A stretch of 64,000 bases of DNA from Desulfuromonadales bacterium (GTDB lineage: Bacteria; Desulfobacterota; Desulfuromonadia; Geobacterales; Pseudopelobacteraceae). The translations under genes and the position numbers were made by a program. Below are positions 3,590 through 62,144 of the stretch, in pieces. Position 1 is the first letter of the stretch. Each line of letters begins with the position of its first letter. The notes below the pieces were generated by a model, which was given only the letters and a program-made list of their open reading frames with translations, made no database searches and had not been told where the DNA came from. The stretch is from NCBI GenBank assembly GCA_013349325.1, contig DUZX01000001.1, forward strand, positions 62,001-126,000, given 5' to 3'.

Positions 3590-4755
3590 CAGTAGACCTT
3601 TTCCAATATGCTCAAGAGGTCGGCATGGTCGGCATCCCGCGGAGAGGTGGTCAGCGAAATATCCTTGAGTGAGCGTTGCGCTAATTCCGGCAAATCCTTA
3701 TGCAGAACACCTATGCTTCGCAGACTGCGCGGCGCTTCGCTGGCTTCAAGCAGGGCATCGAGTGTTTCCTGGATCTTGTCACCGGCAGCATTGATATCGC
3801 CATTTGAGCGGTGCCCCAACCCCCAGGCCAGTTCCTGAAGTTTATCTGTCACAACCGGGAGCTCATAACGCACGACTTCCGGCAGCAGGACGGCATTGAT
3901 ACTTCCGTGGCTGGCATCATAGAGACCGCCGATCGGGTGTGCCAGGGCATGCACAATTCCCAGCATCGAATTGGAAAAAGCCATGCCGGAATGCAGACTG
4001 GCGCGCGCCAGATTCTCCAGATCATCCGGCCTATGCTCCTGAACGGCACGCGGCAGGCTGGCGGACAGCAGACGCAGTGCTTTAAATGCGTGGACGTCTG
4101 TCAGCGTTGTCGAAGCGATCGAAAAAACGGATTCCAGAGCGTGACTCAGCGCATCCGCAGCACTCGTACCAACGTATTCATGGGGCAGTGTCGCCAGTGT
4201 GTCGGGATCCGTCAAACTGATATCCGGGGCGATACAGCGGCTCATAAGCGTCATCTTACAGTGGTGTTCAGTATCGGTGATCATGGCAAACTGTGATACG
4301 TCCGAACCGGTTCCGCAGGTGGTCGGACAGAGCACCAGCGGTGGCAGAGGGCGGATGATCCGATCTGAGCCGCTGTAGTCACGTATGCTGCCGCCGTTGG
4401 CGGCCAGGATGGCGATGGCCTTGGCGGCATCCAGGCAGCTGCCGCCACCCAGTCCGACAATCACATCTGCGCCCAGACGCAGATATTCTCTTGCACCGAG
4501 CGCGACTTCTAAATCTTTGGGATTATTGGTTATTCCGTCAAAATAGACGAACTCGAGGCCAGCTTCCACAAGGCTGCGCATGACCAGATCCACCCAGCCG
4601 GCATTGAACAATCCCTTATCGCTGACCAGAAATATTTTCCGCCCCCCCAGTCGGCGCGCACACAGCCCCACCTGGCTCAGCATGCCGCGACCGAAGATAA
4701 TTTCCGGTACTTCGAACTTATATTTACGCAATGTTGTATCGTTATAGAAATCCAT
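3589..4755 (-). CDS. Iron-containing alcohol dehydrogenase
   Basis: A 388-residue group III (iron-dependent) alcohol dehydrogenase. The GGGSCLDAAKA dinucleotide-binding stretch is present. The metal ligands expected for the family are visible in DALSHALE, IVHALAHPIGG and ASHGSINAVLLP, so the enzyme should be active. It would oxidise or reduce an alcohol/aldehyde pair with NAD(P) in the cytoplasm; the substrate is not apparent. I prefer the ATG at 4755 to the TTG two codons upstream; an AGGA sits about 11 bases before it. It is first in an operon with the kinase and regulator and is preceded by a sigma-54 promoter at 4887-4902, so its product or substrate may be linked to the signal sensed by that pair (inference). 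Confidence 0.92.
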   Translation of the reverse strand: MDFYNDTTLRKYKFEVPEIIFGRGMLSQVGLCARRLGGRKIFLVSDKGLFNAGWVDLVMRSLVEAGLEFVYFDGITNNPKDLEVALGAREYLRLGADVIVGLGGGSCLDAAKAIAILAANGGSIRDYSGSDRIIRPLPPLVLCPTTCGTGSDVSQFAMITDTEHHCKMTLMSRCIAPDISLTDPDTLATLPHEYVGTSAADALSHALESVFSIASTTLTDVHAFKALRLLSASLPRAVQEHRPDDLENLARASLHSGMAFSNSMLGIVHALAHPIGGLYDASHGSINAVLLPEVVRYELPVVTDKLQELAWGLGHRSNGDINAAGDKIQETLDALLEASEAPRSLRSIGVLHKDLPELAQRSLKDISLTTSPRDADHADLLSILEKVY

Positions 4756-47839: not shown

Positions 47840-48306
47840 TAATTGATCGCCTTCATAAGGTTAACGGACTCAATCGCCGTAACCGCCGCGTCAAAGCCCT
47901 TGTTACCGGCCTTGGTTCCGGCCCGCTCAACCGCCTGTTCAATGGTATCAGTCGTCAGAACGCCGAACGCGATCGGCACACCACTGGCCATCGCCACCTG
48001 AGCAACCCCTTTGGACACTTCGGAAGCAACATAGTCAAAATGCGGCGTGGAGCCACGGATAACCGCTCCAAGACAGATCAGCGCATCATAGGTGCCACTC
48101 TCGGCCATTTTTTTGGCAAACAGTGGAATTTCAAACGCCCCCGGCACCCGGGCAACGTAAATATCCTTATCATCGGCACCGTGACGGAGCAACGCATCAA
48201 CGGCGCCCTCCAGCAGACGTTCACAGATAAAGCTGTTAAAGCGGCTGACAACAATACCGAACTTCTGCCCGGCGGCATTGAGATTTCCTTCAAAATACTG
48301 CGGCAT
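47839..48306 (-). CDS. ribH: 6,7-dimethyl-8-ribityllumazine synthase
   Basis: A 155-residue lumazine synthase: [58 protein letters not shown] and [27 protein letters not shown]. It makes the riboflavin precursor from 5-amino-6-ribitylaminouracil and dihydroxybutanone phosphate. It is first in the ribH-nusB-hom-trpB2 run. Confidence 0.97.
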
Positions 48307-48405
48307 GACAACCTCCAGGATCTAACGTAAAAAGAAGCGGGATAGTAGCATATTTTTTGCGGCTGGGTAGAGAAAATATCAGCTGTAGCACCGGATTTAC
48401 TACGT

Positions 48406-49401
48406 CTACCCCAGCTTCAGCGCCGAGAAATACATCTTCCAGACCGTTATCAGCGTAAAGAGCAGGTTACAGATCAATGAAATCAGCGTGAGACGGCGCT
48501 GGAGGAGCGGGATAATGGCGGCCAGACTGGTGACCTTTCTGAACGGCATCAGCACGCCGACTCCAATGCCGGATACTCCGCCGCTGAAGAGCGAGGCATA
48601 GAGCAGATAGCCGATGTAGTGATACTCCTTCTGCAGCAGGCAAAAAGGGCAATGATGCGTGGGGAGTTCGTAGAAGTAGAGACAGATGAATGAGATCAAC
48701 GAGGCCAGCGAGACTGCGAAGGTAGCGGTCGCGGCAAGCGAGAAGAGATATCCGCCGCTCCGTTTGAGATAAAACCGGAGACCGCTGATGAGTGTGGCGG
48801 CCATGCTGCCGAAAAAGAGAGCCATCATCGTAACCGGCGGCAGCGCGGCCAGATCGCCGCTCAGCCCCTTGGATTCATTGCTGAAGAGACTGCCGCAGCA
48901 GGAGGTGATGATATCCGGCTTGACACCGGCAAAATAGGCAAACAGCAGACAACTTTCCAGCACCAAAAGCGGAACAACCAGATTGAGCAGCTCATATTTA
49001 ATGCGGATCAGCGGATAGTCATACCCCCGGTTATCGGTCAGATTGACGATCAGCCAGACGCCGGCCAGCACAAAATTGACTACTTTGAGGATTAAAACCG
49101 GATAGCCGAAGGAGTTGACCGCCAGCGTGCCGGCCGCGCACATGGCGCCCGTGAAGAGCGTATGCAGACTGTCTGCGGTATAAACATACAGAAACAGCGA
49201 CATCAGCTCGAACACCAGAATGCAGCTCATGATCGTGGATATCAGATAGGTACGCCGCTCCAGCTCCAGCTGTTCTTCGCTGCCGCTCCCCAGATCCCAC
49301 TTTGCGAGGATCCGAATGCCGTAGTAGCCGGCGTACATCCCCATGGCAGCTACCAGCAGAGCGGTTATCTGCAGTGCCAGCGTGGCCGGATTCAGAATCA
49401 T
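48406..49401 (-). CDS. Multi-helix membrane protein with CPFC motif
   Basis: A 331-residue integral membrane protein with about eight hydrophobic helices. A Cys-Cys pair (SCCGSLFSNES) and, later, ELPTHHCPFCLLQKEYHYIG lie in loops; CPFCLLQ recalls the membrane disulphide-exchange site of DsbB/VKOR, although the protein as a whole does not match them well. It overlaps the ATPase gene (ATGA) and is last in the NosL/ABC operon. A part in metal or thiol handling at the membrane is inferred from this context only. Confidence 0.65.
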   Translation of the reverse strand: MILNPATLALQITALLVAAMGMYAGYYGIRILAKWDLGSGSEEQLELERRTYLISTIMSCILVFELMSLFLYVYTADSLHTLFTGAMCAAGTLAVNSFGYPVLILKVVNFVLAGVWLIVNLTDNRGYDYPLIRIKYELLNLVVPLLVLESCLLFAYFAGVKPDIITSCCGSLFSNESKGLSGDLAALPPVTMMALFFGSMAATLISGLRFYLKRSGGYLFSLAATATFAVSLASLISFICLYFYELPTHHCPFCLLQKEYHYIGYLLYASLFSGGVSGIGVGVLMPFRKVTSLAAIIPLLQRRLTLISLICNLLFTLITVWKMYFSALKLG

Positions 49402-50126
49402 CGTTTTCTTCCACTATCAACGATTGCGCCGTCGCGCATTTCAACCAACCGGTCAATCAGCGGTGCATCATACACAATCGGGTCATGGCTGGCGATCAGG
49501 ATCGTGCGCCCCTCCCCCTTCAGGCGGGCAACGTTCTCCATGAACTCGTGCGAAAGCTTTGAATCCAGATGAGCGGTCGGTTCGTCAGCAATGATGATCG
49601 ATGGATTATTGATCAGAGCCCGGGCGATGGCAACCCGCTGCAGCTCACCCCCCGAAAGATCGTCAACCCGCTTGGCGGCGTGACGACTGATATTGAACAG
49701 CTCCAGCAGTTCCTCAGCCCGCGTGCGGAAATCAGCCCGTCTTTCACCGGTCGGATAGGCTGGCAGCATGACGTTCTCCAGCACGCTGATGCCCTTGATC
49801 AGATTGAACTGCTGAAAGATGAAGCCAAAGGTTGCGCGGCGGATCTCATTTAAAAAGCGTTCCGGCAGGCTGGTAATTTCGATTGCCTCGCTGCCACTCT
49901 GCTGATACGGAAGCGCAGCCGCCACACCCTGCAGGAAGATCCGGCCGGAGGTTGGGCGGGCCATACAGCCGATCATGGTCATCAGCGACGTTTTGCCGGA
50001 ACCGCTCGGACCTTTAAGAATCGTAATCTGGTGGGGATCGATGTTGAGACTGACGTTATCCACGGCGGTAAACTGGTTCGGCTTGCCGCTGTTGAAACTT
50101 TTGGTAATGGAGACAAGTTCGATCAC
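49398..50126 (-). CDS. ABC transporter ATP-binding protein (LolD/MacB type)
   Basis: A 242-residue ATPase with Walker A GPSGSGKTS, Q-loop FQQFNLI, signature DLSGGELQRVAIARAL, Walker B IIIADEPTAHLD and the H-loop LIASHD. The sequence suits the ATPase that partners FtsX-like permeases, and that permease lies two bases upstream. Together they would act on a substrate held in the outer membrane or periplasm, possibly with NosL. Confidence 0.93.
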   Translation of the reverse strand: MIELVSITKSFNSGKPNQFTAVDNVSLNIDPHQITILKGPSGSGKTSLMTMIGCMARPTSGRIFLQGVAAALPYQQSGSEAIEITSLPERFLNEIRRATFGFIFQQFNLIKGISVLENVMLPAYPTGERRADFRTRAEELLELFNISRHAAKRVDDLSGGELQRVAIARALINNPSIIIADEPTAHLDSKLSHEFMENVARLKGEGRTILIASHDPIVYDAPLIDRLVEMRDGAIVDSGRKR

Positions 50127-50127
50127 G

Positions 50128-51261
50128 TCAGGACCTCATGGCAGCATCGGGATCGGTTGTTGCCGCTCGCCAGCAGGGGATTACGGTGGCGGTCGTATAG
50201 GGCACCACCGTCAAAAAGAAGAGTACCGACAACTGCAGGGCATCTACGACCGGTATCAGCTGAAAGCGGGGGTAAATAACCGACCACCCTTTGAGCGCCT
50301 GGGCAAAAATCGGCGCTGACAGAAAGAAAACGTGCCCGTAAGCCAGCACAACACCCATCAGGAAAGCGGTCAATGAGATAACGATTCCTTCCCAGAACTT
50401 GAGCAGCAGCACATCTCCTGTTTCCCAGCCGATCGATTTAAGAATGCCGATTTCCCGACGCTCTTCAGCCGATAAGCCGGTGGCTTTGTCCCAGGCAAAT
50501 ATAATGAACGAGAGCATCGCCGACGCCAGAATAACAACCGTCATGCCGCCACGCCAGTCAAAGAGCGACTGATAGGTACGCTGGATCTCACTTTTTAAAA
50601 CCGGACGCGCCTCGGGAAAAAGCTCTACAATTTTAGCGGCAATAGTTCCAATCTCTTTGGGGTTTCGCACGCTGATCGCCAGATCAGTAGCCATATTGAC
50701 CGGAAAGTTGAACAGCGCACGGAAGTCATCGGGCGCGATCACGATCAGGTCGGCAGCCATCAGATCTGCTCCCGCAGGAAGAACAGATTTTATCTCCAGC
50801 ATCAGCGGATTTTTTTGATACGTTATCAGCGGCAGCAGGTCACCAACGGCCAGATTACGGGCCTTGGATATGCCGGCACCGATGACCGCCTGTCCCACTG
50901 CTGCAGTGGCATCATCTGCCATTACCGTATAGTTGGCCCCGATCAGTCCATCGTAATAATAGCCCCACAATCGCGATCGAACCGCAGTGACACCTCTGAT
51001 TGCGGCGATCTCAGCTACAGAGGTGGCAGGAACCAGATCCTGACGTCCGGCAACCAGACGCTGGACAACAATGTCGGGCGCATCCTGCAGGATCATACCC
51101 GCTTCACGTTTCAGGGCGGTCACAAAAAACACCAGCGACGCCAGGATAAAAACCACCAGCAGATAGATCGCCAGCAGCGAAAGATTTTTTCCTTTTCTGC
51201 GTGAGAGCGATGACAGCGTAAAATCAAGGATATTCAGATGACGTTCAAGTGAGCGGTTCAT
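50128..51261 (-). CDS. FtsX-like ABC permease
   Basis: A 377-residue permease: one helix near the N-terminus (LSLLAIYLLVVFILASLVFFV), a periplasmic domain of about 180 residues (MacB-PCD type), then three helices near the C-terminus with EERREIGILKSIGWETGDVL between them, the usual FtsX/MacB plan. Its start overlaps the upstream small gene (ATGA). It pairs with the ATPase at 49398-50126. Confidence 0.9.
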   Translation of the reverse strand: MNRSLERHLNILDFTLSSLSRRKGKNLSLLAIYLLVVFILASLVFFVTALKREAGMILQDAPDIVVQRLVAGRQDLVPATSVAEIAAIRGVTAVRSRLWGYYYDGLIGANYTVMADDATAAVGQAVIGAGISKARNLAVGDLLPLITYQKNPLMLEIKSVLPAGADLMAADLIVIAPDDFRALFNFPVNMATDLAISVRNPKEIGTIAAKIVELFPEARPVLKSEIQRTYQSLFDWRGGMTVVILASAMLSFIIFAWDKATGLSAEERREIGILKSIGWETGDVLLLKFWEGIVISLTAFLMGVVLAYGHVFFLSAPIFAQALKGWSVIYPRFQLIPVVDALQLSVLFFLTVVPYTTATVIPCWRAATTDPDAAMRS

Positions 51262-51554
51262 TGCACCTCTCGTAGATGTGGGGGGGGCATAATCAGTGAT
51301 CCGGAGGGGAAATGCTCCAGCGACAGCGGATGATCCTGATACGCTGCGTGGCGATCAGCCAGCGATGGGTGGCGAGTGTAACGTGCTTCCGTTGTGAGAC
51401 ACAGATCCGTCAGCTGCAAGCTCTTCACTAGAGCCGACTGCCGATTTAACCCGGCATCTGCATGCGCTCGAACCGATCGGGCATGCAGTGCAAGTGACAT
51501 CAGGAGCACCAGACTGAAGGCGGTGAAACCCAAATATTGAAGTGATCGCCGCAT
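51258..51554 (-). CDS. Small exported or anchored protein, unknown
   Basis: A 98-residue protein with one hydrophobic helix (about 8-24, GFTAFSLVLLMSLALHA) that could be a signal peptide or anchor, then a polar, histidine-containing tail with proline-rich end (SLIMPPPHLREV). No family is recognised. It lies seven bases after nosL and overlaps the permease start, so it belongs to the operon. Confidence 0.6.
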   Translation of the reverse strand: MRRSLQYLGFTAFSLVLLMSLALHARSVRAHADAGLNRQSALVKSLQLTDLCLTTEARYTRHPSLADRHAAYQDHPLSLEHFPSGSLIMPPPHLREVQ

Positions 51555-51561
51555 GGCTGCC

Positions 51562-52038
51562 CTAGTTGAGAGATTTTATCGTCTGACGGTTTACATCTTT
51601 AAAACGCAGAATGCTTTTACCTTTATGATCAAGCTTGAAAGCCTGGGCGTCTTTCTCGGTCTTAAAAGGGATCAGCTCGCTCCCCATGGGGCCATACACA
51701 TCGCTGCCGGTCACAAAAAAAGCGGCACGCGCATCCATCATTGCCAACGAATAATACTCTTTCACCGACAGTGCAACGATATCGGCCTGGCTCTTTCCCG
51801 GTGAGTAACGCGCGGTATCGAGAAAATGACTGAACATATCCTTGGGTCCGTCGTAATAGGAACTGCTGCCGTCCTTGAAACGGACACTGGCCGTCCAATC
51901 GGGATACTTGGCCACAAACATGCCACAGACCGGACATTTGGCAGCCGCAGGGACAGATAACGCTCCTTTTTCAGCTGCACAGACGGCAGATATCGACAGT
52001 ACGCTGATCAGAAGAATCGTTGTGATAATTTTTTTCAT
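51562..52038 (-). CDS. NosL-family protein
   Basis: A 158-residue exported protein: signal peptide 1-21 (MKKIITTILLISVLSISAVCA), then AAKCPVCGMFVAKYPDW with the CxxCGM metal site, followed by FKDGSSSYYDGPKDMFSHFL and FVTGSDVYGPMGSELIPF, as in NosL. NosL binds Cu(I) and helps copper delivery to nitrous oxide reductase; no nos reductase gene is here, so another copper or haem target is likely. It is first in a five-gene operon with an ABC transporter. The shared element at 52160-52208 lies upstream. Confidence 0.88.
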   Translation of the reverse strand: MKKIITTILLISVLSISAVCAAEKGALSVPAAAKCPVCGMFVAKYPDWTASVRFKDGSSSYYDGPKDMFSHFLDTARYSPGKSQADIVALSVKEYYSLAMMDARAAFFVTGSDVYGPMGSELIPFKTEKDAQAFKLDHKGKSILRFKDVNRQTIKSLN

Positions 52039-52065
52039 GGGATCTCACCTGATTGAGTCAATCTC

Positions 52066-52126
52066 ACCACAGAGTCACTGGGAGCACAGAGAAGCATGCA
52101 ATTACGCTCAGTGTACTCTGTGATAA
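52066..52126. repeat. Palindromic interspersed repeat, family R3 copy b
   Basis: ACCACAGAGTCACTGGGAGC at one end and GTACTCTGTGAT at the other, matching the copy at 16629-16692. It lies between the shared upstream element and the nosL start, within the predicted leader. Confidence 0.7.
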
Positions 52127-52159
52127 CATATTGTGGCATTCCGTTTTTATGTGTTCGAA

Positions 52160-52208
52160 ATACTAGCAGGCAACTGAGTAAATTTCCAGAACAGATTGTG
52201 GAGCAGGA
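52160..52208 (-). promoter_or_regulatory. Conserved upstream element of nosL, copy 1
   Basis: About 40 of 49 bases match 61458-61505, upstream of the other NosL-family gene. On the plus strand shared blocks are TAGCAGGC, CTGAGTA, ATTTCCAGAA and AGATTGT. On the minus strand it contains TAGTAT as a possible -10 element, so it may be a promoter with an operator. It is 122 bases from the nosL start. Confidence 0.6.
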
Positions 52209-52340
52209 AGGTTGAAATAATCCCTTATCAGTTCAAATGGCTAAATATATTGACAACTACAACTTATCATTATTAGTAGATATACCTTCATTACATCCAG
52301 ATGATACTAGTACCATGGAACATTTATTATTTCGGAAAGT

Positions 52341-52452
52341 TTCCCCCTCCCCTTGCGGGAGGGGGGCAGGGTGTGGGGGAAGCTGCAACGGAGTACTTTC
52401 ATGGCAACCTCCCCCCCACCCTAACCCTCCCCCGCCAGGGGGGAGGGAGCTT
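52341..52452. repeat. Large GC-rich imperfect palindrome, family R6
   Basis: CCCCCTCCCC, GCGGGAGGGG and GTGTGGGGGA at the left mirror CCCCCCCACC, CCTCCCCC and GGGGGGAGGG at the right over 112 bases, ending in TTTTTG. It lies in the 500-base gap between the divergent nosL and cysteine-rich genes and could fold into a long hairpin. Nothing else is seen in 52209-52545. Confidence 0.65.
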
Positions 52453-52545
52453 TTTGTACGATTATTTAAGTGTTACTTGATACTAGATTCGATAGTTAGA
52501 TCTGATTTAAAAACGTAGTTGACAAGAATCCGTGAAATGTAAATA

Positions 52546-53205
52546 ATGCCGACAATGAAAAACAGACCTGCACATACGAAACGCCCGTTTCGAAAGCTGA
52601 CCGCCATTGTCATGATGACGGTGTACCTGCTGATTGTGCTCAGTCCGCTAGCCCCTCTGGCCATGTATTCCAAGAGTGTCGCTCATGCGGTAACCGGAGA
52701 GTGTTCCGGAGATTGCAACATCTGCGGCTGTTCAGTGGAAAGCCGGGCCAATCAGACCTGCTGCTGTGCGAAGAAGAAACAGCAGAGCAAGCTGTCAAAT
52801 GGAGAGATTTCTGAGCAACAGCCTGTTTCAAAAAAGCGCAGTTGCTGTGCAGATTCAAAACCGGTCGCTCCCAAGAAAGAGTGCTGCGCTACATCCCAGC
52901 CGGTTGCTCCCAAAAATGATTGTTGTGCAAAGAACAAAAAACATCCGCACGATGAAAATGCGCAAGAGTTGCAACAGAAGCAGCCGCCTCCGAAAAATGA
53001 AACCGTTTTGAAGTGTGGCTGCCCCTGCGGTAAGAGTACCGTGTTCGCCCTGGCTACCGGATCATCTGATTCAATGCCGTTTTTTTATGCTGATACACTA
53101 CCCCATCCCCACGCAGCATACCTCAGTTTTTCCCACGTAAATCGCCTGACATCCCGTCATGCCGAGCCGCCCGATCCACCACCAAAACTCACCGTCGTTG
53201 CCTGA
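52546..53205 (+). CDS. Cysteine-rich exported protein with tandem CC motifs
   Basis: A 219-residue protein (216 if the ATG at 52555 is used). After a basic start, a hydrophobic stretch (about 19-45) acts as signal or anchor. The mature part has SGDCNICGCS, TCCCAKKK, and a run of units RSCCADSKPVAPKKE, ECCATSQPVAPKND, DCCAKNKKHPHDE, ending with KCGCPCGKS and a histidine-containing tail (LPHPHAAYLSFSH). The repeated CC spaced by about 13-14 residues suggests thiol-based metal binding outside the cytoplasm. No family is recognised. Its start region lacks a strong ribosome-binding site. It is divergent from the nosL operon. Confidence 0.7.
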   Translation: MPTMKNRPAHTKRPFRKLTAIVMMTVYLLIVLSPLAPLAMYSKSVAHAVTGECSGDCNICGCSVESRANQTCCCAKKKQQSKLSNGEISEQQPVSKKRSCCADSKPVAPKKECCATSQPVAPKNDCCAKNKKHPHDENAQELQQKQPPPKNETVLKCGCPCGKSTVFALATGSSDSMPFFYADTLPHPHAAYLSFSHVNRLTSRHAEPPDPPPKLTVVA

Positions 53206-53303
53206 TCAATCGAATACTACTACCTACCAATTAATTCTTGAGAGCGGGACGATTTCCGCAATCTGAAACGGTGCGGAATTCAGTCGCGATAGGAGCAACG
53301 CGT

Positions 53304-53489
53304 ATGAATTTGTCCGAGTTTAAGGTGCCGACGAGCACGCAACCGCCACGAAAAACGCTGACGATGGATCGCAGCGATTTTCCATTGACGGTCCAGTATG
53401 GTGAGACCACCTACGTCCTGATAGCAACAAAAAGTAAAAAGCTGCTGCTCCAGAAACCGTTGGAGCTCACGAGCCAGCAAGCCCGCTGA
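53304..53489 (+). CDS. HemP-like small protein
   Basis: A 61-residue protein. The C-terminal half, FPLTVQYGETTYVLIATKSKKLLLQKP, has the strand pattern of the hemin-uptake HemP family (a short protein with VxHxGxxYxLRxTRxGKLILTK). The ATG at 53304 follows AGGAG. HemP proteins are linked with haem or siderophore uptake, but their mechanism is unclear, and no receptor gene is adjacent. Confidence 0.65.
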   Translation: MNLSEFKVPTSTQPPRKTLTMDRSDFPLTVQYGETTYVLIATKSKKLLLQKPLELTSQQAR

Positions 53490-53629
53490 CGCTGTAATTT
53501 TAAAGTGCCTCGTCGTGAGTTAGCTGAATAATTCTCCATGCAAAGCAAGGTGTTATTCGGCTCTCGAGCACGCCCGGTATCAATCAGAAAAACTATCAGG
53601 TTATTTATACTGATGGAAAGGATACTTCA

Positions 53630-53878
53630 ATGAAAAGAACATATAACACTCTGCGCAGAGCGATTGCAGACCGCCTCACGGCTGCACGAAAAAAAGCGCG
53701 CCTAAGCCAGAATAATGTAGCAGAGACACTCAATATCCCGCGTCCGTCCGTATCAGAAATCGAATGTGGAAAGCGAAAAGTTACGGCGGAGGAATTTGTA
53801 CTTTTTGCAAAGCTGTATAACGTGAGCCTCGACTGGCTGGCGGAGCGCGAAAATGTCATGAGTCAGGGTACGGTGTAA
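53630..53878 (+). CDS. Small XRE-family regulator
   Basis: An 82-residue protein that is almost entirely one helix-turn-helix domain: LTAARKKARLSQNNVAETLN, IPRPSVSEIECGKRKVTAEE and FAKLYNVSLDWLAE. This fits the HTH_3 (XRE/Cro) group, which represses nearby genes or phage-like functions. No toxin or ImmA-type protease gene is next to it. It is followed by its own terminator. Targets are unknown; the tandem repeats at 54031-54080 are one candidate. Confidence 0.85.
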   Translation: MKRTYNTLRRAIADRLTAARKKARLSQNNVAETLNIPRPSVSEIECGKRKVTAEEFVLFAKLYNVSLDWLAERENVMSQGTV

Positions 53879-53940
53879 CATTACACCGCAAGAATAACCA
53901 AGCAGTAAACGATCAGTACGAATCATCCCGACTGATCAGC

Positions 53941-53974
53941 AGCCCCGCTACAGTGAATGTAGCGGGGCTTTTTT
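53941..53974 (+). terminator. Terminator of the XRE gene
   Basis: AGCCCCGCTACA pairs perfectly with TGTAGCGGGGCT around five bases, followed by TTTTT. Confidence 0.92.
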
Positions 53975-54030
53975 ATTCCCGCATCTTCAGTTTTCATACC
54001 GTTTTTCAATACGGTACGAGAACAAATTCA

Positions 54031-54080
54031 CGGTTGTTTTAAAATAGTGTCGGTTGTTTTAAAATAATGTCGGTTTTTTT
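54031..54080 (+). repeat. Tandem 20-base direct repeats
   Basis: CGGTTGTTTTAAAATA then GTGT or ATGT occurs twice head to tail (54031-54050, 54051-54070; 19 of 20 bases equal), and a third partial copy starts at 54071. They could be regulator sites or the remnant end of an IS21-type element, whose ends carry such multiples. The rest of 53975-54492 is AT-rich; no gene is visible. Confidence 0.6.
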
Positions 54081-54492
54081 TACACATTTTTGCAGCCAAA
54101 TCCTCTCATGAAGATACTAAATTCGACAATTCTCGTTATTTTATAGTGTCTACAGAGATCTTTTTAGTCAACAATGCGGAAATCATTGAACATGCTCTTT
54201 GAGGGCACATCAAGTTAATTGTCATCCACTTATAATTCAGAAGTGTCGATAAACTTTACAATCAGACCATTTCCGCACAAAATATACGGGAAAATAAATC
54301 AGATAACATCCATAAATTTAGCTACTTATACTATTGTTTTCGATCGAGCACAAATTGTGCTTTAAATTATGCAAGAGCAGTATTTTTTGTAAAAGTATGG
54401 CTCGAATCAGTGCATATACAACACAACCGAATTTATAGCCTCTTGACGGAAACAAGCAAGTAAGCAACTCTGCACAATGCAGACAGCCAACC

Positions 54493-54546
54493 AGCCGATA
54501 AGCTCTCACTCTTCTTCATGTGTGAGAGCTTATCGGCTTTTATTTT
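54493..54546 (+). terminator. Strong terminator in the leader of the cytochrome operon
   Basis: A perfect 17-bp stem (AGCCGATAAGCTCTCAC and its complement) around a 12-base loop, followed by TTTATTTT. It ends 44 bases before the parvulin ATG, while the preceding XRE gene already has its own terminator, so it looks like part of a regulated leader. A small TCTGC/GCAGA hairpin lies just upstream. Confidence 0.85.
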
Positions 54547-54589
54547 ACCAGAAGCGGAATCAACTCGAAAAACCAGAAAAAGGAGAAAC

Positions 54590-55609
54590 ATGATGCAGAT
54601 GCGAAAAATGATACCCACCCTGTTACTTTTCACGGTAGCCATTTCAATGCCCTGTAGCCCGGTCCGGGCCGAAGTGGGCAAGGAGTCAGACAAGGAAACC
54701 GTGAAGGAATCTTCCAAAATAGATCCGCTTGTCCTGACGGTTAACGGCATTCCGGTAACCCGCAGTGATGTCGACCGCATCATAGCCCTGATGGTCACGC
54801 AGCTGCCGAAACATATGGAAACAGAGAAGCTGAAAGCCAAAACGGAAGAATCGGCCCGCGATAAAATGGTTGAGATTACGCTGCTCTTTCAGGCCGGGTC
54901 AAAGTCTCTGCCGGCTGATTTTGACAAACAACTGGAGGAGCTGTTTCAAGAAAAACGGAGCAAGTTCACCACCGTGGCCGGTTTTGAGTTCAACCTTAAA
55001 AAACTCGGCATGACCGAGGCGGAATATCGCAATTTCCTGCGCAGGGAACTTATCGTCAACAACTTCATCAAGACCACCTACATCGACAAAATCACCATTA
55101 CGGACCAGGAAATCGCCGATTTTTATAAAGAGAAAAAGGATGGTTTCAAGATCCGCGAGGAGAGCCGCAAGGTCAGCCATATCCTGGTCCCTGTAGATGC
55201 CAAGGCGACTGATGATCAGAAAAAAGCGGCCCGTGCAAAAGCTGACAGACTGCATGATCGGGTTGTCAAGGGTGAGGACTTTGCCGAGGTTGCCCGCAAG
55301 GAATCAAGCGACGTCACCGCCCGTCTGGGCGGCAGCCTCGATTTTATCAGCAAGGGACAGATGCCGCCCCCCTTTGAAAAGGCCGCCTACGCTCTCAAAA
55401 AGGGAGAAATCAGCGGAGTTGTTGAAACGCCGCTCGGTCTGCACATCATCCAGCTGAACGACATCTCGGCAGCTGAGTTCGAAACGTTAGCCAATGTAAA
55501 AGAAAAGATCAAGGATCACCTGAAGAACATTGAAGCCAAAAAAAGATTGAACAGCTACCTGGCGACCGCCAAGAAAAGTGCCGTGATTACCGTCGCAGAC
55601 AATAAATAG
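54590..55609 (+). CDS. Exported parvulin-type peptidyl-prolyl isomerase
   Basis: About 339 residues. A signal peptide (about 1-26, ending PVRA) is followed by a SurA-like N-terminal helical region and a parvulin domain (about 200-300): VSHILVPVDAKATDDQKKAA, ARKESSDVTARLGGSLDFIS, GEISGVVETPLGLHIIQL. It would help fold exported proteins by turning proline bonds. The ATG at 54590 follows AGGAG; the frame extends upstream into the terminator. It is first in an operon with a pentahaem cytochrome, which may be its client (inference). Confidence 0.9.
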   Translation: MMQMRKMIPTLLLFTVAISMPCSPVRAEVGKESDKETVKESSKIDPLVLTVNGIPVTRSDVDRIIALMVTQLPKHMETEKLKAKTEESARDKMVEITLLFQAGSKSLPADFDKQLEELFQEKRSKFTTVAGFEFNLKKLGMTEAEYRNFLRRELIVNNFIKTTYIDKITITDQEIADFYKEKKDGFKIREESRKVSHILVPVDAKATDDQKKAARAKADRLHDRVVKGEDFAEVARKESSDVTARLGGSLDFISKGQMPPPFEKAAYALKKGEISGVVETPLGLHIIQLNDISAAEFETLANVKEKIKDHLKNIEAKKRLNSYLATAKKSAVITVADNK

Positions 55610-55744
55610 GTACCTGCAATGTCGCAGATTATACAGATGAAAGGTGGCGATGACAGGAGTAGCAAGGTTAGTGGAATAATGGCGCGTGGATTGCGAGATG
55701 AATGTTTTCACGCTGAGGATCAACACTAAAAAGGAGCATGGAAC

Positions 55745-56359
55745 ATGATGCAAAAGACATGGAACCTTCTCGTATCAGTGCTGCTGTTAGCTGCAGTCAC
55801 CTGTTCTGTCGTCCAGGCGGAAGTCAGCAAAAAAAAGGAACTGATTACGCAATCCGAAGCAGGCTGGCAGATTACCAATACCACCGTTGTCAAGGCAAGT
55901 CAGGCCGTCACCTTCCGTCAGGGAGTTATTGTGGATGACTATATTGTCAGCGGAGATGCAGCAGCCCTCAGCACGGCAACACCGATCCAGAAAGGCAAGG
56001 TCCGTTTTACGGTCAACCTGTTTTCCCCGATCAGAGACATGCCCGGCCAGCGTGCCGGACTCTGGTATCTTCAAGGGACCTGGACAATCACTGCCGACGA
56101 TGCCAAACCCGAATTGCTCAAAATCAGGCACAACCCGTATGTCATTGAAGGCGACATAAAAGCCGAACTGGCCAACAACCCGGTTGACCAGCCATCTGCA
56201 GAACTAGCAGCCAAGGTATACATACTCAATTCCATGGCTGCCGGGCGCTGGACAAACGGATACGGAACATACGCGGGAAACGGTAGTTTTGAAGGTTCCA
56301 TAACGCTGAACATTGATTCACACCCAGATCTGACACAACCCAACGAAGCAAAAAAGTAG
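55745..56359 (+). CDS. Exported protein of unknown function in the cytochrome operon
   Basis: A 204-residue protein. Residues 1-24 are a signal peptide (LLVSVLLLAAVTCSVVQA). The mature part is rich in beta-strand-like stretches (TFRQGVIVDDYIVSG, GKVRFTVNLFSPIRDMPGQRAGLWYLQGTWTI) and ends GSFEGSITLNID. No cysteine or haem site is seen apart from the signal. No family is recognised. GGAG precedes the ATG. It lies between the isomerase and the cytochrome with short gaps, so it is probably part of the same export or assembly unit. Confidence 0.75.
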   Translation: MMQKTWNLLVSVLLLAAVTCSVVQAEVSKKKELITQSEAGWQITNTTVVKASQAVTFRQGVIVDDYIVSGDAAALSTATPIQKGKVRFTVNLFSPIRDMPGQRAGLWYLQGTWTITADDAKPELLKIRHNPYVIEGDIKAELANNPVDQPSAELAAKVYILNSMAAGRWTNGYGTYAGNGSFEGSITLNIDSHPDLTQPNEAKK

Positions 56360-56389
56360 CATTAATTAATTGAAAAAGGAGAACACCGC

Positions 56390-59300
56390 ATGAAACGAAT
56401 ACTGTTAATGGCGACGATGACTATGGTCGGTCTGTACGCCGGCTCTGTTATGGCGGACGTACCGGGAAGAAAAGCGCCATCAGGGATTGTCCCGAATCCG
56501 GGAACTCAGCAGCAGGAACTGACCAACATCACTGCTCCCGGTACCTACAATGTGTTTGAATTTCCGAACTTCTGCGCCGGTTGTCACGGCGGCACGCTGG
56601 ACCAGAATATGTCTCACTACGGAAACTGGGCCGGCTCCAACATGGCCAACTCCGGTCGTGACCCGTTCTTTAGAACCAACAATCTGATCGTCAATGCAGA
56701 TGCCTATTACGGTACTAACGGCGCAATAAACGGTGTCGGCAATATCTGCTGGCGTTGCCATAGCCCCAACGGCTGGTACTCGTCACGCCTGGATGAAAGC
56801 CAGGGGGGCAAGATCGACGGCAGCACCATCGAGCAGAGTCTGGTAAAATCAACCGACATGCAGGGTATTTCCTGCGAATTCTGCCACCGTACCATCGGCA
56901 ACGTCACCTTCAAACGTGCCGACCTGGTCGCTAACCCTGCCATTGGCAATAATGATCCTGCCTGGCTGCTGCTGGCCGGCGCAACTGACTGGCCGCATAT
57001 CGGCAACCCCTATCCGGAAGGCCCGCTGGCCGGCAACCCTTACGGAGACACAACCTTCCAGTTCAACGATGGCAAGGTCTATCAGGCTGACCTGCCCGGC
57101 AACCAATTACTCTTCTGGAGTGACATTCCGACCTCCGGTGGCTACACCGGCCAGACCTACGGCATCTACCCCCCCGGATTTGCAGGTGCAAACCTCGTAG
57201 CTCAGACCCCGTTAGGTCAACCGGTAACCAATCTGCTGGGGGATACAATTGCCTATCTGCCGAACGGTCAATCCAAACTCCACTTTGAACAGAGCGTCAG
57301 TCCTCCGAAAATCTTGGACCCGGTAACCGGCCAGCTTGTTGCCGATTACGAGGAAAGCTCTATTTCACCGCGTCACGCCACTCATATGGGTGGAATCGGA
57401 GCCGGTGGTGTGCCGGTCGTTCAGGACGGCCTGACCGCTTCCGGAAACCGCTACCTGCCGACTGCAGAAATGTGCGGCACCTGCCACGACCTGACCGTTC
57501 CGACGCTCAACAGCGGTATGCCGGAACAACGTACCTACACCGAATGGAAATACAGCCGCTTCGGTCGCACCAACTTTATCTGCCAGGATTGTCACATGGG
57601 CGAAGCCCAGCATGAATCCAAAGACGGCATGGCCGGTACCTTCAAGGCTGATCCGGAAAAAGCTGGTTATTTCCCGTATGCCAAACCGCGTCCCGCCTCA
57701 GCCATCCACAAATTCAGCCCTGCCAACCGCGATCTTGGTTCCATGCTCGCCTGGTTGAACCCGGAAGTTGACCTGGAAGTCACCGGCAAACCGAGTGGTG
57801 AAGATACCCGCACCAGCAACGGCGTCCTTTCCAGCCGTACTGAAACCTATGCCCGTCAGACTCGTAACGGCGAGCTGAAACTGCGCGACGCTGCCCGTCT
57901 TGAGATCGTTAAGCAGCCGACCCTCGTTACAGGTACTACCAATACGTATGAAGTGCAGGTCAAAGTAACCAACCTGACCGGCCACTCCTTCCCATCCGGC
58001 TATCCGGACGGACGCCGCGCATTTGTCACCCTCAATGTATCTGATGCCAATAATGCCCTGGTCTATCAGAGCGGATTTTATGACAATGCCACAGCGGAAC
58101 TGAAAACAACCGCCCTGGATCCCTTCAAACGGGCTCAGTCACCAACCATCGATGCCGCAGCCGGCAACAATGCCGTAATGGTCTATGAAAAGAAGACCGG
58201 TTCGCCAAACGGTGACGGTACGTTTAAAATGGGCGAAAGCCTCTTGAACCCTGTTATCGTATTTGACAACCGCCTTCATCCGGCCGGCTGGACCGCTGAA
58301 TTTGAAAACGCCGGCGTCAGACTTGTCAACTACACCGGCACCGAAGCCGCTGCTATACCATTTAATGAGCCAACCCGTTTCGGTGCTCTGACCAATCCGA
58401 GACTCGATGGCCTCATCGTCCCTGACCCGGCTGATGCCGGCGCCCACTGGGATGTCATCACGTATCGTTTTACCTCTGCAACTACTCCGACCAACGCCCG
58501 TGCTGAAATTTTCTATCAGAGCCATGCCCGTGATTTTGTAGAATACCTGAAAGACCGCAACAACCAGGAAACAGTGAAGGATCTCACTGGAGATCCTGCC
58601 TTCCCTGCACGCCCGGCAACCCTGGGCGGTCCGAAACCGGAAGGAACTCCAAGTATCAACGAAGTTAACTATCCCTTCACCCCTAACTATCTGGGTGACA
58701 ATATCAACGTAACCGCCATAAACGACCTTAATGGCCAGCCACTGATGAACAACTGGGGTGGCGTTATGTATGCTTCCTGGCTTGCCACCGGCAAAGGCGC
58801 ACCATTCTCGATTGACGTTGCCGACACAACCCAGCTTGCAGCCCCTGCTGTACCAACCGTAACGGCAGTATCACTGACCCCATTCAAAAACCAGATCAGC
58901 TGGGGAGCTGTTGCCGGTGCCGAAAAATATGTCGTTCTGGTACGCTTTGGTACTGCCGGCACCAATGACATGTGGGGTGTTGGCCTCCCCAATGCATCCT
59001 GGGACCGTCTTGCCATAGTCGACAAAGCCCAGACCAGCTTTGACCATGTTGTTAAACCGGGCAAAACCTACGGTTATATGGTCTATGCCGTCAACGATGC
59101 AACCTTCAGCGACCCGCTGAACGATCAGATTCTTGAATTCAACTTCGGTCTCGGCGGTGGCGATGCCATCACCGGTACCCTGGAGACCGTCGCATTCAGT
59201 GCAATTGCTGAAGTTACTACCCCCGGTGCAACCCCGACTGAACCGAAAAACCTGCAGGTAGCCGCAGTTACTACCGGCAGCGTAACACTCAAATGGTACG

Positions 59301-59827
59301 ACCAGGCCATCGACGAAACCGGCTTCATCGTCGAGCGTCAGCTTGTCAACCCCAACGGCAGCAGAGGTGCTTTTGTTGCGCTGCCGGTTATTGCGTCGCA
59401 GACAACAGGTGCAACCGGGATCGGTTACAATACCTGGACTGACACCACCGTCGCTGCCGGAACAACCTATAATTACCGTGTTAAAGCGGTCAACGGTACT
59501 GTTTCATCTATCTACAGCGATATCAAGTCGGCACGTACATCACTTGCAGCACCAACCGCCCCGTCAGCTCTGCGGGCATCGGCAATCACAGCCACCTACG
59601 TGATTCTGAACTGGACCGACACATCCACGATTGAAACCGGATTCTATGTAGAGCGCAGTGCCAACAACGGCGCAACCTGGACCCGGGTCGCCACAACAGC
59701 TGCAAATACGGCAACATTCCGTAACACGGCGCTCATTACAAAAACTGCATACCAGTACCGTGTGCAGGCCTTCAATACCAACGGCGTTTCACCGCTTTCG
59801 AACACGCTGCTGGTAACCACGAAATAA
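56390..59827 (+). CDS. Pentahaem c-type cytochrome with fibronectin III domains
   Basis: A 1145-residue exported protein. Signal peptide 1-22. Five CXXCH haem sites: CAGCH (C62), CWRCH (C120), CEFCH (C162), CGTCH (C362) and CQDCH (C398). A large beta-rich region (about 430-800) contains GHSFPSGYPDGRRAF. A segment from about 808 resembles a fibronectin III domain, and two clearer ones follow: PKNLQVAAVTTGSVTLKW... and APSALRASAITATYVILNW.... It is likely at the cell surface or outside and may carry electrons to an outside acceptor. The haem spacing is uneven: the first three are grouped and the last two lie 200 residues later. AGGAG lies upstream. Confidence 0.9.
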   Translation: MKRILLMATMTMVGLYAGSVMADVPGRKAPSGIVPNPGTQQQELTNITAPGTYNVFEFPNFCAGCHGGTLDQNMSHYGNWAGSNMANSGRDPFFRTNNLIVNADAYYGTNGAINGVGNICWRCHSPNGWYSSRLDESQGGKIDGSTIEQSLVKSTDMQGISCEFCHRTIGNVTFKRADLVANPAIGNNDPAWLLLAGATDWPHIGNPYPEGPLAGNPYGDTTFQFNDGKVYQADLPGNQLLFWSDIPTSGGYTGQTYGIYPPGFAGANLVAQTPLGQPVTNLLGDTIAYLPNGQSKLHFEQSVSPPKILDPVTGQLVADYEESSISPRHATHMGGIGAGGVPVVQDGLTASGNRYLPTAEMCGTCHDLTVPTLNSGMPEQRTYTEWKYSRFGRTNFICQDCHMGEAQHESKDGMAGTFKADPEKAGYFPYAKPRPASAIHKFSPANRDLGSMLAWLNPEVDLEVTGKPSGEDTRTSNGVLSSRTETYARQTRNGELKLRDAARLEIVKQPTLVTGTTNTYEVQVKVTNLTGHSFPSGYPDGRRAFVTLNVSDANNALVYQSGFYDNATAELKTTALDPFKRAQSPTIDAAAGNNAVMVYEKKTGSPNGDGTFKMGESLLNPVIVFDNRLHPAGWTAEFENAGVRLVNYTGTEAAAIPFNEPTRFGALTNPRLDGLIVPDPADAGAHWDVITYRFTSATTPTNARAEIFYQSHARDFVEYLKDRNNQETVKDLTGDPAFPARPATLGGPKPEGTPSINEVNYPFTPNYLGDNINVTAINDLNGQPLMNNWGGVMYASWLATGKGAPFSIDVADTTQLAAPAVPTVTAVSLTPFKNQISWGAVAGAEKYVVLVRFGTAGTNDMWGVGLPNASWDRLAIVDKAQTSFDHVVKPGKTYGYMVYAVNDATFSDPLNDQILEFNFGLGGGDAITGTLETVAFSAIAEVTTPGATPTEPKNLQVAAVTTGSVTLKWYDQAIDETGFIVERQLVNPNGSRGAFVALPVIASQTTGATGIGYNTWTDTTVAAGTTYNYRVKAVNGTVSSIYSDIKSARTSLAAPTAPSALRASAITATYVILNWTDTSTIETGFYVERSANNGATWTRVATTAANTATFRNTALITKTAYQYRVQAFNTNGVSPLSNTLLVTTK

Positions 59828-59885
59828 CGGCGTTACCCTGGGGAGGGACACCCCTTCCCAGGGACTTTCACAAGGAGCTCATATC

Positions 59886-60509
59886 ATGAAGAAATATGTA
59901 TTGATTTTATCCATCATTATTCAGATGCTTGTTGCAAGCTCGGCACTGGCGTTTACCGTAGATTTTTCCGGCGTACCCTACACGGATATTACTGCGACAC
60001 CCTATACCCTTGGCGACGTTACCTTTGCCTATGATAATTTCGGTACCCCAGCCTCCGCTTCGATTGATGAACTTGGGGTGTACGGCAACACGGATGGCGT
60101 CCTGAAACTCAGTTTTTTATCTTCCGTATCATCCATTACCCTCGGCTATAACCTGTTCAATGTATACAGCAGCGACCTCGTTGACGGATCCCTGCTTGCA
60201 ACGACCAAGTTGGCTGGTGGTGGAGACGTTGATCTGACTTCATTTGCTCTGTTTACAGCAGCTGGAACTGATCCAACTTTTGGTGCTTTCGGTGATGCCG
60301 TCGGAACACTTACCTATTCAGGAGCTTTCTTTGACGAGATTTCTCTCTATTTTGCCTACAGTGACCTTGGAGCAAACTTTACGGTAGACAGCATTTCCTA
60401 TGCTTCCGGCCCCGCACCGGTTCCGGAACCGGCTACCGTTGTTCTGCTGGGTGCCGGCCTATTCGGCCTGGCCGTCTACGGTAAACGCCGCATGAACCTC
60501 AACACTTGA
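59886..60509 (+). CDS. PEP-CTERM protein
   Basis: A 207-residue exported protein. Signal peptide 1-23 (LILSIIIQMLVASSALA). The middle is glycine/serine/aromatic-rich beta-type sequence with DFSGVPYTDITATPY and FDEISLYFAYSDLG. The C-terminus is a full PEP-CTERM tag: VPEPATVVLLGAGLFGLAV then YGKRR, the signal recognised by exosortase. No exosortase gene is in this window. A good GGAG site precedes the ATG. It is last in the operon, before a terminator. Confidence 0.92.
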   Translation: MKKYVLILSIIIQMLVASSALAFTVDFSGVPYTDITATPYTLGDVTFAYDNFGTPASASIDELGVYGNTDGVLKLSFLSSVSSITLGYNLFNVYSSDLVDGSLLATTKLAGGGDVDLTSFALFTAAGTDPTFGAFGDAVGTLTYSGAFFDEISLYFAYSDLGANFTVDSISYASGPAPVPEPATVVLLGAGLFGLAVYGKRRMNLNT

Positions 60510-60558
60510 AACAGCTGCCATCGCACCGCTTGACGTTCGTTATACGTGACACTTCACA

Positions 60559-60585
60559 AGCACCTCTCCGGAGGTGCTCTTTTTT
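60559..60585 (+). terminator. Terminator of the cytochrome operon
   Basis: AGCACCTC and GAGGTGCT form an 8-bp stem around TCCG, followed by CTTTTTT. Confidence 0.9.
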
Positions 60586-60618
60586 CATCGGTTTTCCATT
60601 CAACCGCATGGGTATTTA

Positions 60619-60756
60619 TGGAGCGGGAGCGAACATCTGGATCCAGGTTACCAGCCGGTCAGCACGGCAGTACCGGCCCTGGGACCGTGGGGAGTACTGG
60701 CAGGTATCGGGGCATTGGGTATGCTCCTGCAACGTCGCCAGATGGCACAATCATAA
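60619..60756 (+). pseudogene. Remnant with IPTL-CTERM-like tail
   Basis: A short open frame encodes AVPALGPWGVLAGIGALGM and then LLQRRQ, which has the order of IPTL-CTERM sorting tails (Ile/Val-Pro-x-Leu-xx-Trp-Gly, hydrophobic helix, Arg pair). It lies downstream of a terminator, has no ribosome-binding site or signal peptide, and its upstream part matches nothing, so it is best read as the end of a lost gene. Confidence 0.45.
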
Positions 60757-60848
60757 AATCAGATTCAACACAAACGCACTGCAACGAATGTTAGCATGGC
60801 AGGCCCTGCCTCATATTCCGGATCATGTTCCAGTCTTGAAAATACGAA

Positions 60849-60872
60849 GGGGCGAACCACCCGGTTCGCCCC
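60849..60872. repeat. Short hairpin related to family R1
   Basis: GGGGCGAACC pairs perfectly with GGTTCGCCCC across four bases. The core equals the arms of repeat R1 (709-797, 4782-4872). The 60757-60916 gap holds nothing else recognisable. Confidence 0.6.
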
Positions 60873-60916
60873 TGAAGAAAATCTGTTAAAGTCCATACCT
60901 ATGGGTAATCTACGGT

Positions 60917-61414
60917 TTATTCCTTCTCCGCCAGAGCCAACGCCTCCTTGTATGTCCCCAACTTGCCGCCGTTTTTCTTTATGAATGCCTCGGCATCACC
61001 TTTTGCTGCAAAGGCCCATTTCGCATTGCGCGTCATAACTCCCTTTTTGCTGCCGCCGATCACCCAGGTTGCTTTCTCAGCATCGATCAGTTTTTTGCTA
61101 TTGTAATCACCAACCTGAATCGATTTAAGTACCTTACCCTTACTGGCCTTCAATTCGGTAGCGGTGCAGTTGAGACTGCATACACCGACCGTAGTGCCGT
61201 CAGCATAGGTGAGCAGCATGCGGGAATGGGAAAACTTTTCGCGATCCATACCGCAGTGTGCGCAGGACTGTATTTTTTTGACATCTGCGTGGCTTGCTTC
61301 GGCTGCGCTACCTTGTTTGTGACCTTCATGCCCTTCCATCTGTCCGGCCAATACTGCACCGCCGCTCAGGGTGAGCGCAGCAGCGGCGAATAATGCGATA
61401 ATTTGTTTTTTCAT
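60917..61414 (-). CDS. NosL-family-like exported protein
   Basis: About 165 residues. A signal peptide (about 1-23, ALTLSGGAVLAG) precedes a His-rich stretch, MEGHEGHKQGSAAEASHADV, then IQSCAHCGMDREKFSHSRML with a CxxCGM site, and GVCSLNCTATEL. The last part (KWAFAAKGDAEAFIKKNGGKLGTYKEAL) resembles the NosL C-terminus. It probably binds copper or another soft metal in the periplasm. The ATG at 61414 follows AGGAGT. The element at 61458-61505 lies 44 bases upstream and is shared with the nosL operon at 52038. Confidence 0.82.
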   Translation of the reverse strand: MKKQIIALFAAAALTLSGGAVLAGQMEGHEGHKQGSAAEASHADVKKIQSCAHCGMDREKFSHSRMLLTYADGTTVGVCSLNCTATELKASKGKVLKSIQVGDYNSKKLIDAEKATWVIGGSKKGVMTRNAKWAFAAKGDAEAFIKKNGGKLGTYKEALALAEKE

Positions 61415-61457
61415 AGTGATACTCCTCAAATGTGATCGGTGAAAAAATGTGATTGGG

Positions 61458-61505
61458 ATAATAGCAGGCTGCTGAGTATATTTCCAGAAAGATTGTCAGT
61501 CAGGA
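61458..61505 (-). promoter_or_regulatory. Conserved upstream element, copy 2
   Basis: Matches 52160-52208 in about 40 of 49 positions with one single-base gap. On the minus strand TATTAT at the gene-proximal end fits a -10 element. Confidence 0.6.
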
Positions 61506-61513
61506 AATGGGGC

Positions 61514-61556
61514 GCATTCACCTGAGCGCGCAACATCAGCGCACTCATGTGAATGC
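61514..61556. terminator. Long imperfect hairpin between lipoprotein and NosL-like genes
   Basis: An 18-bp stem with two mismatches (GCATTCAC... with ...GTGAATGC) around AACATCA. There is no T-run, so it may be a factor-assisted terminator or an RNA stabiliser for the lipoprotein transcript. Confidence 0.4.
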
Positions 61557-61564
61557 CGAGACAG

Positions 61565-62077
61565 TTACTGCAAGGTTACTGCAGAAACTGTAGCCGACGT
61601 AATGCCCGCAATGGGTGCCCCGAGAGTGTCGGTAGCGTTGACAGCGGTCAGGGGATTAAAATCAGCAGCCACGGGAGCCGCGCCGTTAGCCAGTTGCAGC
61701 GTTATTGTCGCTACTTCACCGACAGTATTCACACCTGCAGCTTCTGAACTGGCCAGCACTATCTGGAGTGTTCCTTTGGTTGTACCAGCTGCTACAGTAT
61801 AGGTAACTACCGGCGCAATTGTGTTTCCGGTAAACGTACCGGACGAAGTGACAACAGTGGTTGCAACGGCACCGTTAACCTGGGCCGGTGTCACATCGGC
61901 CGGTAGAGTTACGGTAAAACCGGTACCGGCTATGGTTTGTGTACCGAGGTCGCCACTCAAATTAACCTTGAGAGTTGCTGTTGTATTCGTAGGTGTACTA
62001 CTTCCGCCCCCCCCACACGCTGCAAACATTAAACAAACTGATAAAAAGATACTGGACCGCAAAATATTTTTAATCAT
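61565..62077 (-). CDS. Lipoprotein with cohesin-like pattern
   Basis: A 170-residue protein with a lipoprotein signal peptide: SIFLSVCLMFAACGGGG with lipobox cysteine at about residue 21, followed by a glycine/serine/threonine linker. The mature part (about 33-170) is all beta-like: ATLKVNLSGDLG, GFTVTLPADVTPAQV, VVTYTVAAGTTKGTLQIVLAS, GEVATITLQLANGAAPVAADF and DTLGAPIAGITS. This order of strands and the GEVATITL/AAPVAADF section resemble cohesin domains, though the match is by eye. It lies 67 bases downstream of a gene ending in a dockerin-like module. AAGGAG precedes the ATG. Confidence 0.6.
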   Translation of the reverse strand: MIKNILRSSIFLSVCLMFAACGGGGSSTPTNTTATLKVNLSGDLGTQTIAGTGFTVTLPADVTPAQVNGAVATTVVTSSGTFTGNTIAPVVTYTVAAGTTKGTLQIVLASSEAAGVNTVGEVATITLQLANGAAPVAADFNPLTAVNATDTLGAPIAGITSATVSAVTLQ

Positions 62078-62104
62078 AGAAGTGAATCTCCTTATTGGTA
62101 AGAT

Positions 62105-62127
62105 CCGCCTGCTCAGAGAGCAGGCGG
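62105..62127. other. Perfect hairpin between the dockerin-ended and lipoprotein genes
   Basis: CCGCCTGCTC and GAGCAGGCGG form a 10-bp stem around three bases, with no T-run. It may adjust the relative amounts of the two proteins by blocking RNA decay (inference). Confidence 0.5.
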
Positions 62128-62144
62128 GGTTGATGTACCTCTTA

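Follow-up and report, generated by a model that had tools for sequence, protein, structure and literature searches.

According to PMC6530538, NosL is a Cu(I) chaperone that in denitrifiers serves the CuZ site of nitrous oxide reductase. The window analysed here, a stretch of 64,000 nucleotides, carries two NosL-family genes, nosL1 and nosL2, about 9 kb apart, and each of them is preceded on its own strand by a copy of one short sequence element. This locus raises the question of what the element is, and by which route it came to stand before these two genes.

Extent of the shared element

The two genes and the two copies of the element are located as follows.
51562-52038, minus strand: nosL1, a NosL-family gene (PF05573, E 4.2e-28), first gene of the series nosL1-p98-FtsX-ABC-TM331, an order that is kept in relatives
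52149-52212, minus strand: copy 1 of the element, upstream of nosL1; in the alignment 48 of 65 columns are identical to copy 2
60917-61414, minus strand: nosL2, the second NosL-family gene (PF05573, E 1.1e-13), now standing alone; by its place in the tree the ortholog of the relatives' operon leader
61448-61510, minus strand: copy 2 of the element, upstream of nosL2, located by the same alignment

Bases 52160-52208 and 61458-61505 are identical in 40 of 49 aligned columns, with 8 mismatches and one gap of 1 nt, in exact agreement with the coordinates and the match of about 40 in 49 given by the original prediction. Aligned locally, the two upstream regions match best from ACAATCT to CACAT, with 42 identical columns out of 51 and one gap; the score of 53 was not reached by any of 5000 dinucleotide-shuffled pairs (mean 16.8, maximum 29). 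The wider block listed above includes 3 gaps. The similarity covers about 65 bp and stops at both ends, beyond which ungapped 10-bp bins contain 1-4 identities, with one bin of 6. A repeat search of 51500-64000 returned the element pair as the longest direct repeat found.

Both copies lie upstream of a minus-strand gene that matches PF05573, as had been predicted. The accompanying claim that neither gene is a close copy of the other holds as well (DNA alignment score 20 against a shuffled mean of 18.7). The conclusion drawn from it, that this is not simply a duplicated segment, stands for the genes; the element itself, however, is most likely duplicated. The open reading frame of nosL2 extends over 60917-61429, with its ATG likely at 61414, and a terminator-like hairpin follows the gene at 60848-60873.

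Copy number and distribution

The element was searched for in the genome and in relatives, as had been proposed. In the 3.58-Mb genome (72 contigs, 99.96% complete) there are 2 copies at up to 3 mismatches, again 2 with a shorter core, and again 2 in a profile search (E<=10). Genes matching PF05573 also number exactly two in this genome, both preceded by the element. The wider regulon envisaged by the original prediction is not supported, since the profile at E<=10 reports only the two nosL sites.

With 3 mismatches allowed, the element was absent from the 276 other genomes of the class (277 in total) and from the 75 other genomes of the family. Other loci yielded no match when 8 mismatches were allowed, nor did 586,951 bases of such loci when the limit was raised to 10. 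At 11 mismatches, 17 matches appear in these bases, and the reversed pattern gives 18 at 11 and 3 at 10. The profile, run over the 76 family genomes, produces matches at E<=1 in 25 of them, the genome of the window included. The best foreign match (genome G045, E 0.016) is about at chance level for 75 other genomes; it sits between open reading frames which, by eye, we take to encode a flavodiiron protein and RadA. Proteins of the window had no match in nine foreign loci examined (L117-L125), the element had none in a plasmid collection, and a literature search by general words found no papers on it.

Promoter layout

Within the two copies, a core can be delimited.
52160-52188, minus strand: core of copy 1, TGGAAA, 17-bp spacer and extended -10 TGC-TAGTAT, as read from the sequence
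61458-61486, minus strand: core of copy 2, TGGAAA, 17-bp spacer and extended -10 TGC-TATTAT, as listed by a promoter scan

Read on the minus strand, the block consists of TTCCTG, 4 bp, ACAATCT, 0 or 1 bp, TTCTGGAAATWTACTCAGNNGCCTGCTAKTAT, and a start-site region that ends in CACAT. Both copies have the same strand and the same layout, TGGAAA-17-TAKTAT with TGC ahead of the -10 hexamer, so that the TAGTAT or TATTAT predicted at the gene-proximal end is seen in both. Conservation extends beyond the hexamers to the 17-bp spacer and the upstream ACAATCT. In each case TG lies one base before a TATAAT-like hexamer, the -35-like hexamer falls within the expected distance of 16-18 bp, and a gene follows downstream on the same strand, which is the layout of a sigma-70 extended -10 promoter (TGnTATAAT). 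From such a promoter, transcription would start 5-9 bp downstream of the -10. The TGC before TATTAT or TAGTAT, the 17-bp spacer and the A/T-rich start region are shared with such promoters. On the other hand, the -35-like TGGAAA is weak, and the spacer is conserved well past the needs of RNA polymerase.

The promoter scan picked out copy 2, which has 9 of 12 hexamer matches and TG before the -10. With 8 of 12, copy 1 is under the scan threshold of 9 of 12 and absent from the list. Around copy 2 the scan gave two further candidates, one per strand, making a total of 3 against 1.3 in shuffles; the scan alone is therefore no proof. The distance from -10 to ATG amounts to 121 bp for nosL1 and 43 bp for nosL2.

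Taken together, the promoter layout, the conservation beyond what a bare promoter needs and the position before both NosL genes and nowhere else make a promoter plus operator, as originally suggested, the best reading of the element. Transcription from it, its role as an operator and a regulator that binds it would, on this sequence evidence, be expected.

Operon ancestry of the two genes

The arrangement in the window can be compared with that in relatives, which, where named, are Geobacter-like (Desulfuromonadaceae, Geobacteraceae, Oryzomonas, Pelobacter sp.). Two further features are needed for this comparison.
48406-51554, minus strand: rest of the ancestral operon, namely p98, an FtsX-type permease, an ABC ATPase and a 331-aa membrane protein, in the same order as in relatives
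52213-60916, all open reading frames on the plus strand: separating stretch with a Cys-rich ORF, an HTH ORF, a PPIase, a 204-aa ORF, a 1145-aa cytochrome-like ORF and a PEP-CTERM-like ORF

In 14 of 18 loci examined in the genus, nosL2 immediately precedes nosL1, and p98, FtsX, ABC and the 331-aa membrane protein come next where the contigs extend that far; in the other four (L039, L042, L048, L051) it is missing from that place. A tree of 53 NosL2-like proteins places the window's nosL2 in an operon-leader group of 27 rows (21 from operons, 5 standing alone, and the window) with support 93/94. A group of 7 rows (5 standalone, 2 from operons) is separated from it by branches of 96/91 and 100/95. 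The labels operon and alone require 12 changes on this tree, and gene position is thus not a clean marker. The window's nosL2 and nosL1 are orthologous to genes that are adjacent in relatives. By gene order and phylogeny, they are to be read as the separated halves of one ancestral operon, which would explain why the element is shared by these two genes and no others.

Apart from the Cys-rich ORF, the open reading frames of the separating stretch have no homologue in 43 nosL loci (L034-L076). On its other side nosL2 adjoins open reading frames at 61565-62077 and 62145-63998. In genomes G023 and G057, homologues of these stand ahead of another NosL gene, a standalone one. At the window's nosL2, two neighbourhoods have apparently come together, and since one of them is that of a different NosL gene, the region would be more rearranged than a single insertion implies. 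The gene divergent from the nosL operon in eight relatives' loci (L036, L038, L039, L041-L043, L045, L138) is presumably RNase R, as judged by eye. Such a gene was looked for in the window and in locus L128 and not found, which suggests that the nosL genes left that neighbourhood here. Three genes like nosL2 are gathered in about 10 kb of one relative's contig stretch (L085, G020:C163). In the window, two inverted-repeat pairs of equal offset (about 2388 bp) and 83% complementarity link 60620-60821 with 63036-63231; the former, past the 3' end of nosL2, is likely a decayed inverted fragment of the big open reading frame at 62145-63998.

The nosL promoter of relatives

Upstream of nosL2, relatives have a different recurring promoter-like motif of 29 bp, GTTGCRYRG-N7-ATTTNCGNTATAT. 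A search at 2 mismatches gave 12 matches in 12 of 39 genomes of the genus, against 1 for the reversed control (G015). Eight of them stand before nosL2, three directly before nosL1 where nosL2 is absent (G016, G018, G057), and one (G021) inside a long open reading frame. At the same tolerance the motif has no match in the genome of the window or in 26 other genomes of the genus, and it is therefore common but not universal. Its spacer is conserved in 11 nosL sites, a conservation inflated by the choice of these sites by pattern.

The relatives' promoter resembles the element in the genes it serves, in the 17-bp spacing of its hexamers, in a conserved spacer by the -10, and in being nearly always found at nosL, with at most one match per genome. 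It differs in sequence, and in having one copy per genome as opposed to two. Descent of the element from it was considered and rejected: against the nosL promoters and upstream regions of 26 relatives the best scores were 20 and 19, while the 95% point of the null distribution is 22. In the genome of the window, the sequence of the relatives' promoter has been lost.

Proposed history of the element

Based on these data, we hypothesize that this element works as a promoter overlapped by an operator, that it serves the nosL genes alone, and that a duplication brought it before both halves of the operon split in this lineage. We consider this account probable, with some reservation. In the state preserved by relatives, nosL2 would lead nosL2-nosL1-p98-FtsX-ABC-TM331 under one promoter. 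In the lineage of the window, nosL2 and nosL1 would have been parted by about 9 kb, with the sequence of the relatives' promoter gone, and a promoter of new sequence would have come to stand before each half, both being copies of one ancestor. Two routes appear most likely. The promoter may have been duplicated when the operon broke. Otherwise, nosL2 together with its promoter may have been copied to a place near the open reading frame at 61565-62077, and the original nosL2 may later have been lost, leaving its promoter before nosL1. The three genomes G016, G018 and G057, in which the promoter stands directly before nosL1 and nosL2 is absent, indicate that such a loss of nosL2 occurs in nature. 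Several observations speak against this account: copy 1 falls short of the scan threshold, no remnant of nosL2 was found between the element and nosL1, the element does not resemble the relatives' promoters, and the surroundings of nosL2 are those of another NosL gene in G023 and G057. Selection for joint expression may have kept about 65 bp alike as the flanks decayed, and a palindromic repeat may later have entered the leader of nosL1 and lengthened it.

A similarity far above that of shuffled sequences would fit common descent of the two promoters. The 276 other class genomes searched include no relative in an intermediate state, and we therefore infer the duplication, its order and its route from the two sequences themselves.

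Operons have a life cycle in which the pieces of a broken operon end up with separate promoters. The present case is alike in that genes of one operon stand apart, each with its own promoter; it differs in that both pieces seem to have a copy of one promoter and not unrelated new ones. A second split case, locus L057 of Oryzomonas with nosL2 and nosL1 about 2.5 kb apart, has dissimilar upstream regions (score 19), and these halves without a common promoter argue against promoter copying as a general rule.

A more far-reaching version is put forward tentatively, and we regard it as possible but rather doubtful: the whole nosL promoter would have been replaced by unrelated sequence and then duplicated, both halves would be under one dedicated regulator, and the nosL operons of the genus would each have a dedicated promoter and operator of their own. 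If the proposed history is true, co-expression can outlive an operon, its halves copying a shared promoter rather than evolving new ones. The locus would then point to a regulator dedicated to the NosL-ABC system of Geobacter-like bacteria. In the more far-reaching version it would also be a case from nature in which a promoter turned over and was then copied, with co-regulation preserved. The scope, with two sites in a single genome, is narrow. The two sites and the relatives' 29-bp promoter constitute defined DNA baits for finding the regulator.

Alternative readings and regulator motifs

The two copies could be the leftover of a segment duplication comprising the promoter and the nosL2 region, alike because the event was recent and serving no shared function at present. 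Two copies of one ancestor would suffice for the similarity, the element is found in one species only, and the degenerate inverted repeat 60624-60821 / 63036-63231 indicates that the region has been rearranged. A recent event should however have left similar flanks, and only 65 bp are alike, with both flanks at chance level. In addition, what has been kept is a promoter layout, in which the differences spare the -35-like hexamer, TACTCAG, GCCTGC and most of the -10. A mere leftover thus appears unlikely.

Control by copper or another metal through a promoter of the CueR/MerR, CsoR or CopY class would suit the role of NosL as a Cu(I) chaperone (PMC6530538), and a Cys-rich ORF is located beside copy 1. 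The metal responsiveness suggested by the original prediction is, however, not supported. The same site was not found at several copper genes, the genome containing only the two nosL sites. MerR-family promoters have a spacer of 19-20 bp with a dyad inside. The spacer of the element measures 17 bp, and a CueR-like dyad has 6 mismatches in copy 1 and does not occur within 6 mismatches in copy 2. Compared with the 10-bp pattern of the CopY operator, TACANNTGTA, each copy has 3 mismatches. The CsoR operator is a G-tract pseudo-palindrome. Given the spacer and the ill-fitting CueR-like and CopY patterns, we regard this reading as quite improbable.

As for regulators at large, no consensus of CueR, CopY, FNR, Crp, Fur, ArsR/SmtB, sigma-54 or sigma-32, as generally given, fits both copies; that of Crp has 2 mismatches in copy 2 and 4 in copy 1. 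The nearest motif is the E. coli LexA box, CTGT-N8-ACAG. Both copies have CTGG-N8-TCAG over the -35 and the spacer, with 2 mismatches. The element is wrong at the two inner symmetric positions of this box, nothing ties the genes to DNA damage, and the likeness is treated as chance.

Two promoters that independently gained sites for one regulator, with no common descent, might be conceived of for genes that had been functionally linked beforehand. Yet the alignment of 42 in 51 columns includes the spacer and the start region, which goes beyond the need of a regulator site, and the genome has no other sites; we give such convergence very little credence. An interspersed repeat or mobile promoter cassette is next to inconceivable despite the presence of another repeat in the same leader, since the many unrelated copies named in the original prediction as speaking for it were not seen: the element has exactly two copies, both before NosL genes, as compared with 25 for the other repeat. 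It is this duplicated promoter with an overlapping operator that we retain as the preferred reading.

Repeats and minor features

The other repeat in the leader of nosL1 has its arm between the element and the gene.
52065-52091, plus strand: arm of an interspersed palindromic repeat of the CACAGAG type, found by genome search

The 25 genome matches of this arm were obtained at up to 3 mismatches, the reversed control giving 0. For the repeat as a whole (52041-52137), genome matches are often pairs on opposite strands, tens to hundreds of bases apart. A hairpin predicted in the nosL1 leader is weak (z -1.71, with 10 of 200 shuffles as stable), and no structured RNA of Rfam reached its gathering score in 48000-64000. 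The repeat could account for the longer distance from -10 to ATG at nosL1.

The 219-aa Cys-rich ORF (52546-53205) looks secreted and is without a Pfam or NCBIfam match. Its homologues, 32-57% identical, are found a few kb or less from nosL genes in genomes G006, G010, G018, G020, G021, G023 and G024, which suggests a functional link to the nosL genes. The HTH ORF (53630-53878, 82 aa), about 1.4 kb from copy 1, matches RstR-family phage repressors weakly, with a score under the curated cut-off. At 54031-54070 there are two tandem 20-bp copies, 95% alike. A G+C-rich inverted repeat occupies 52340-52455 (CCCTCCCC.../...GGGGAGGG); its 3' end, at 52425-52447, resembles a terminator. A stretch similar to this repeat by eye is located near a standalone NosL gene of a relative (L059, about 3730-3810).
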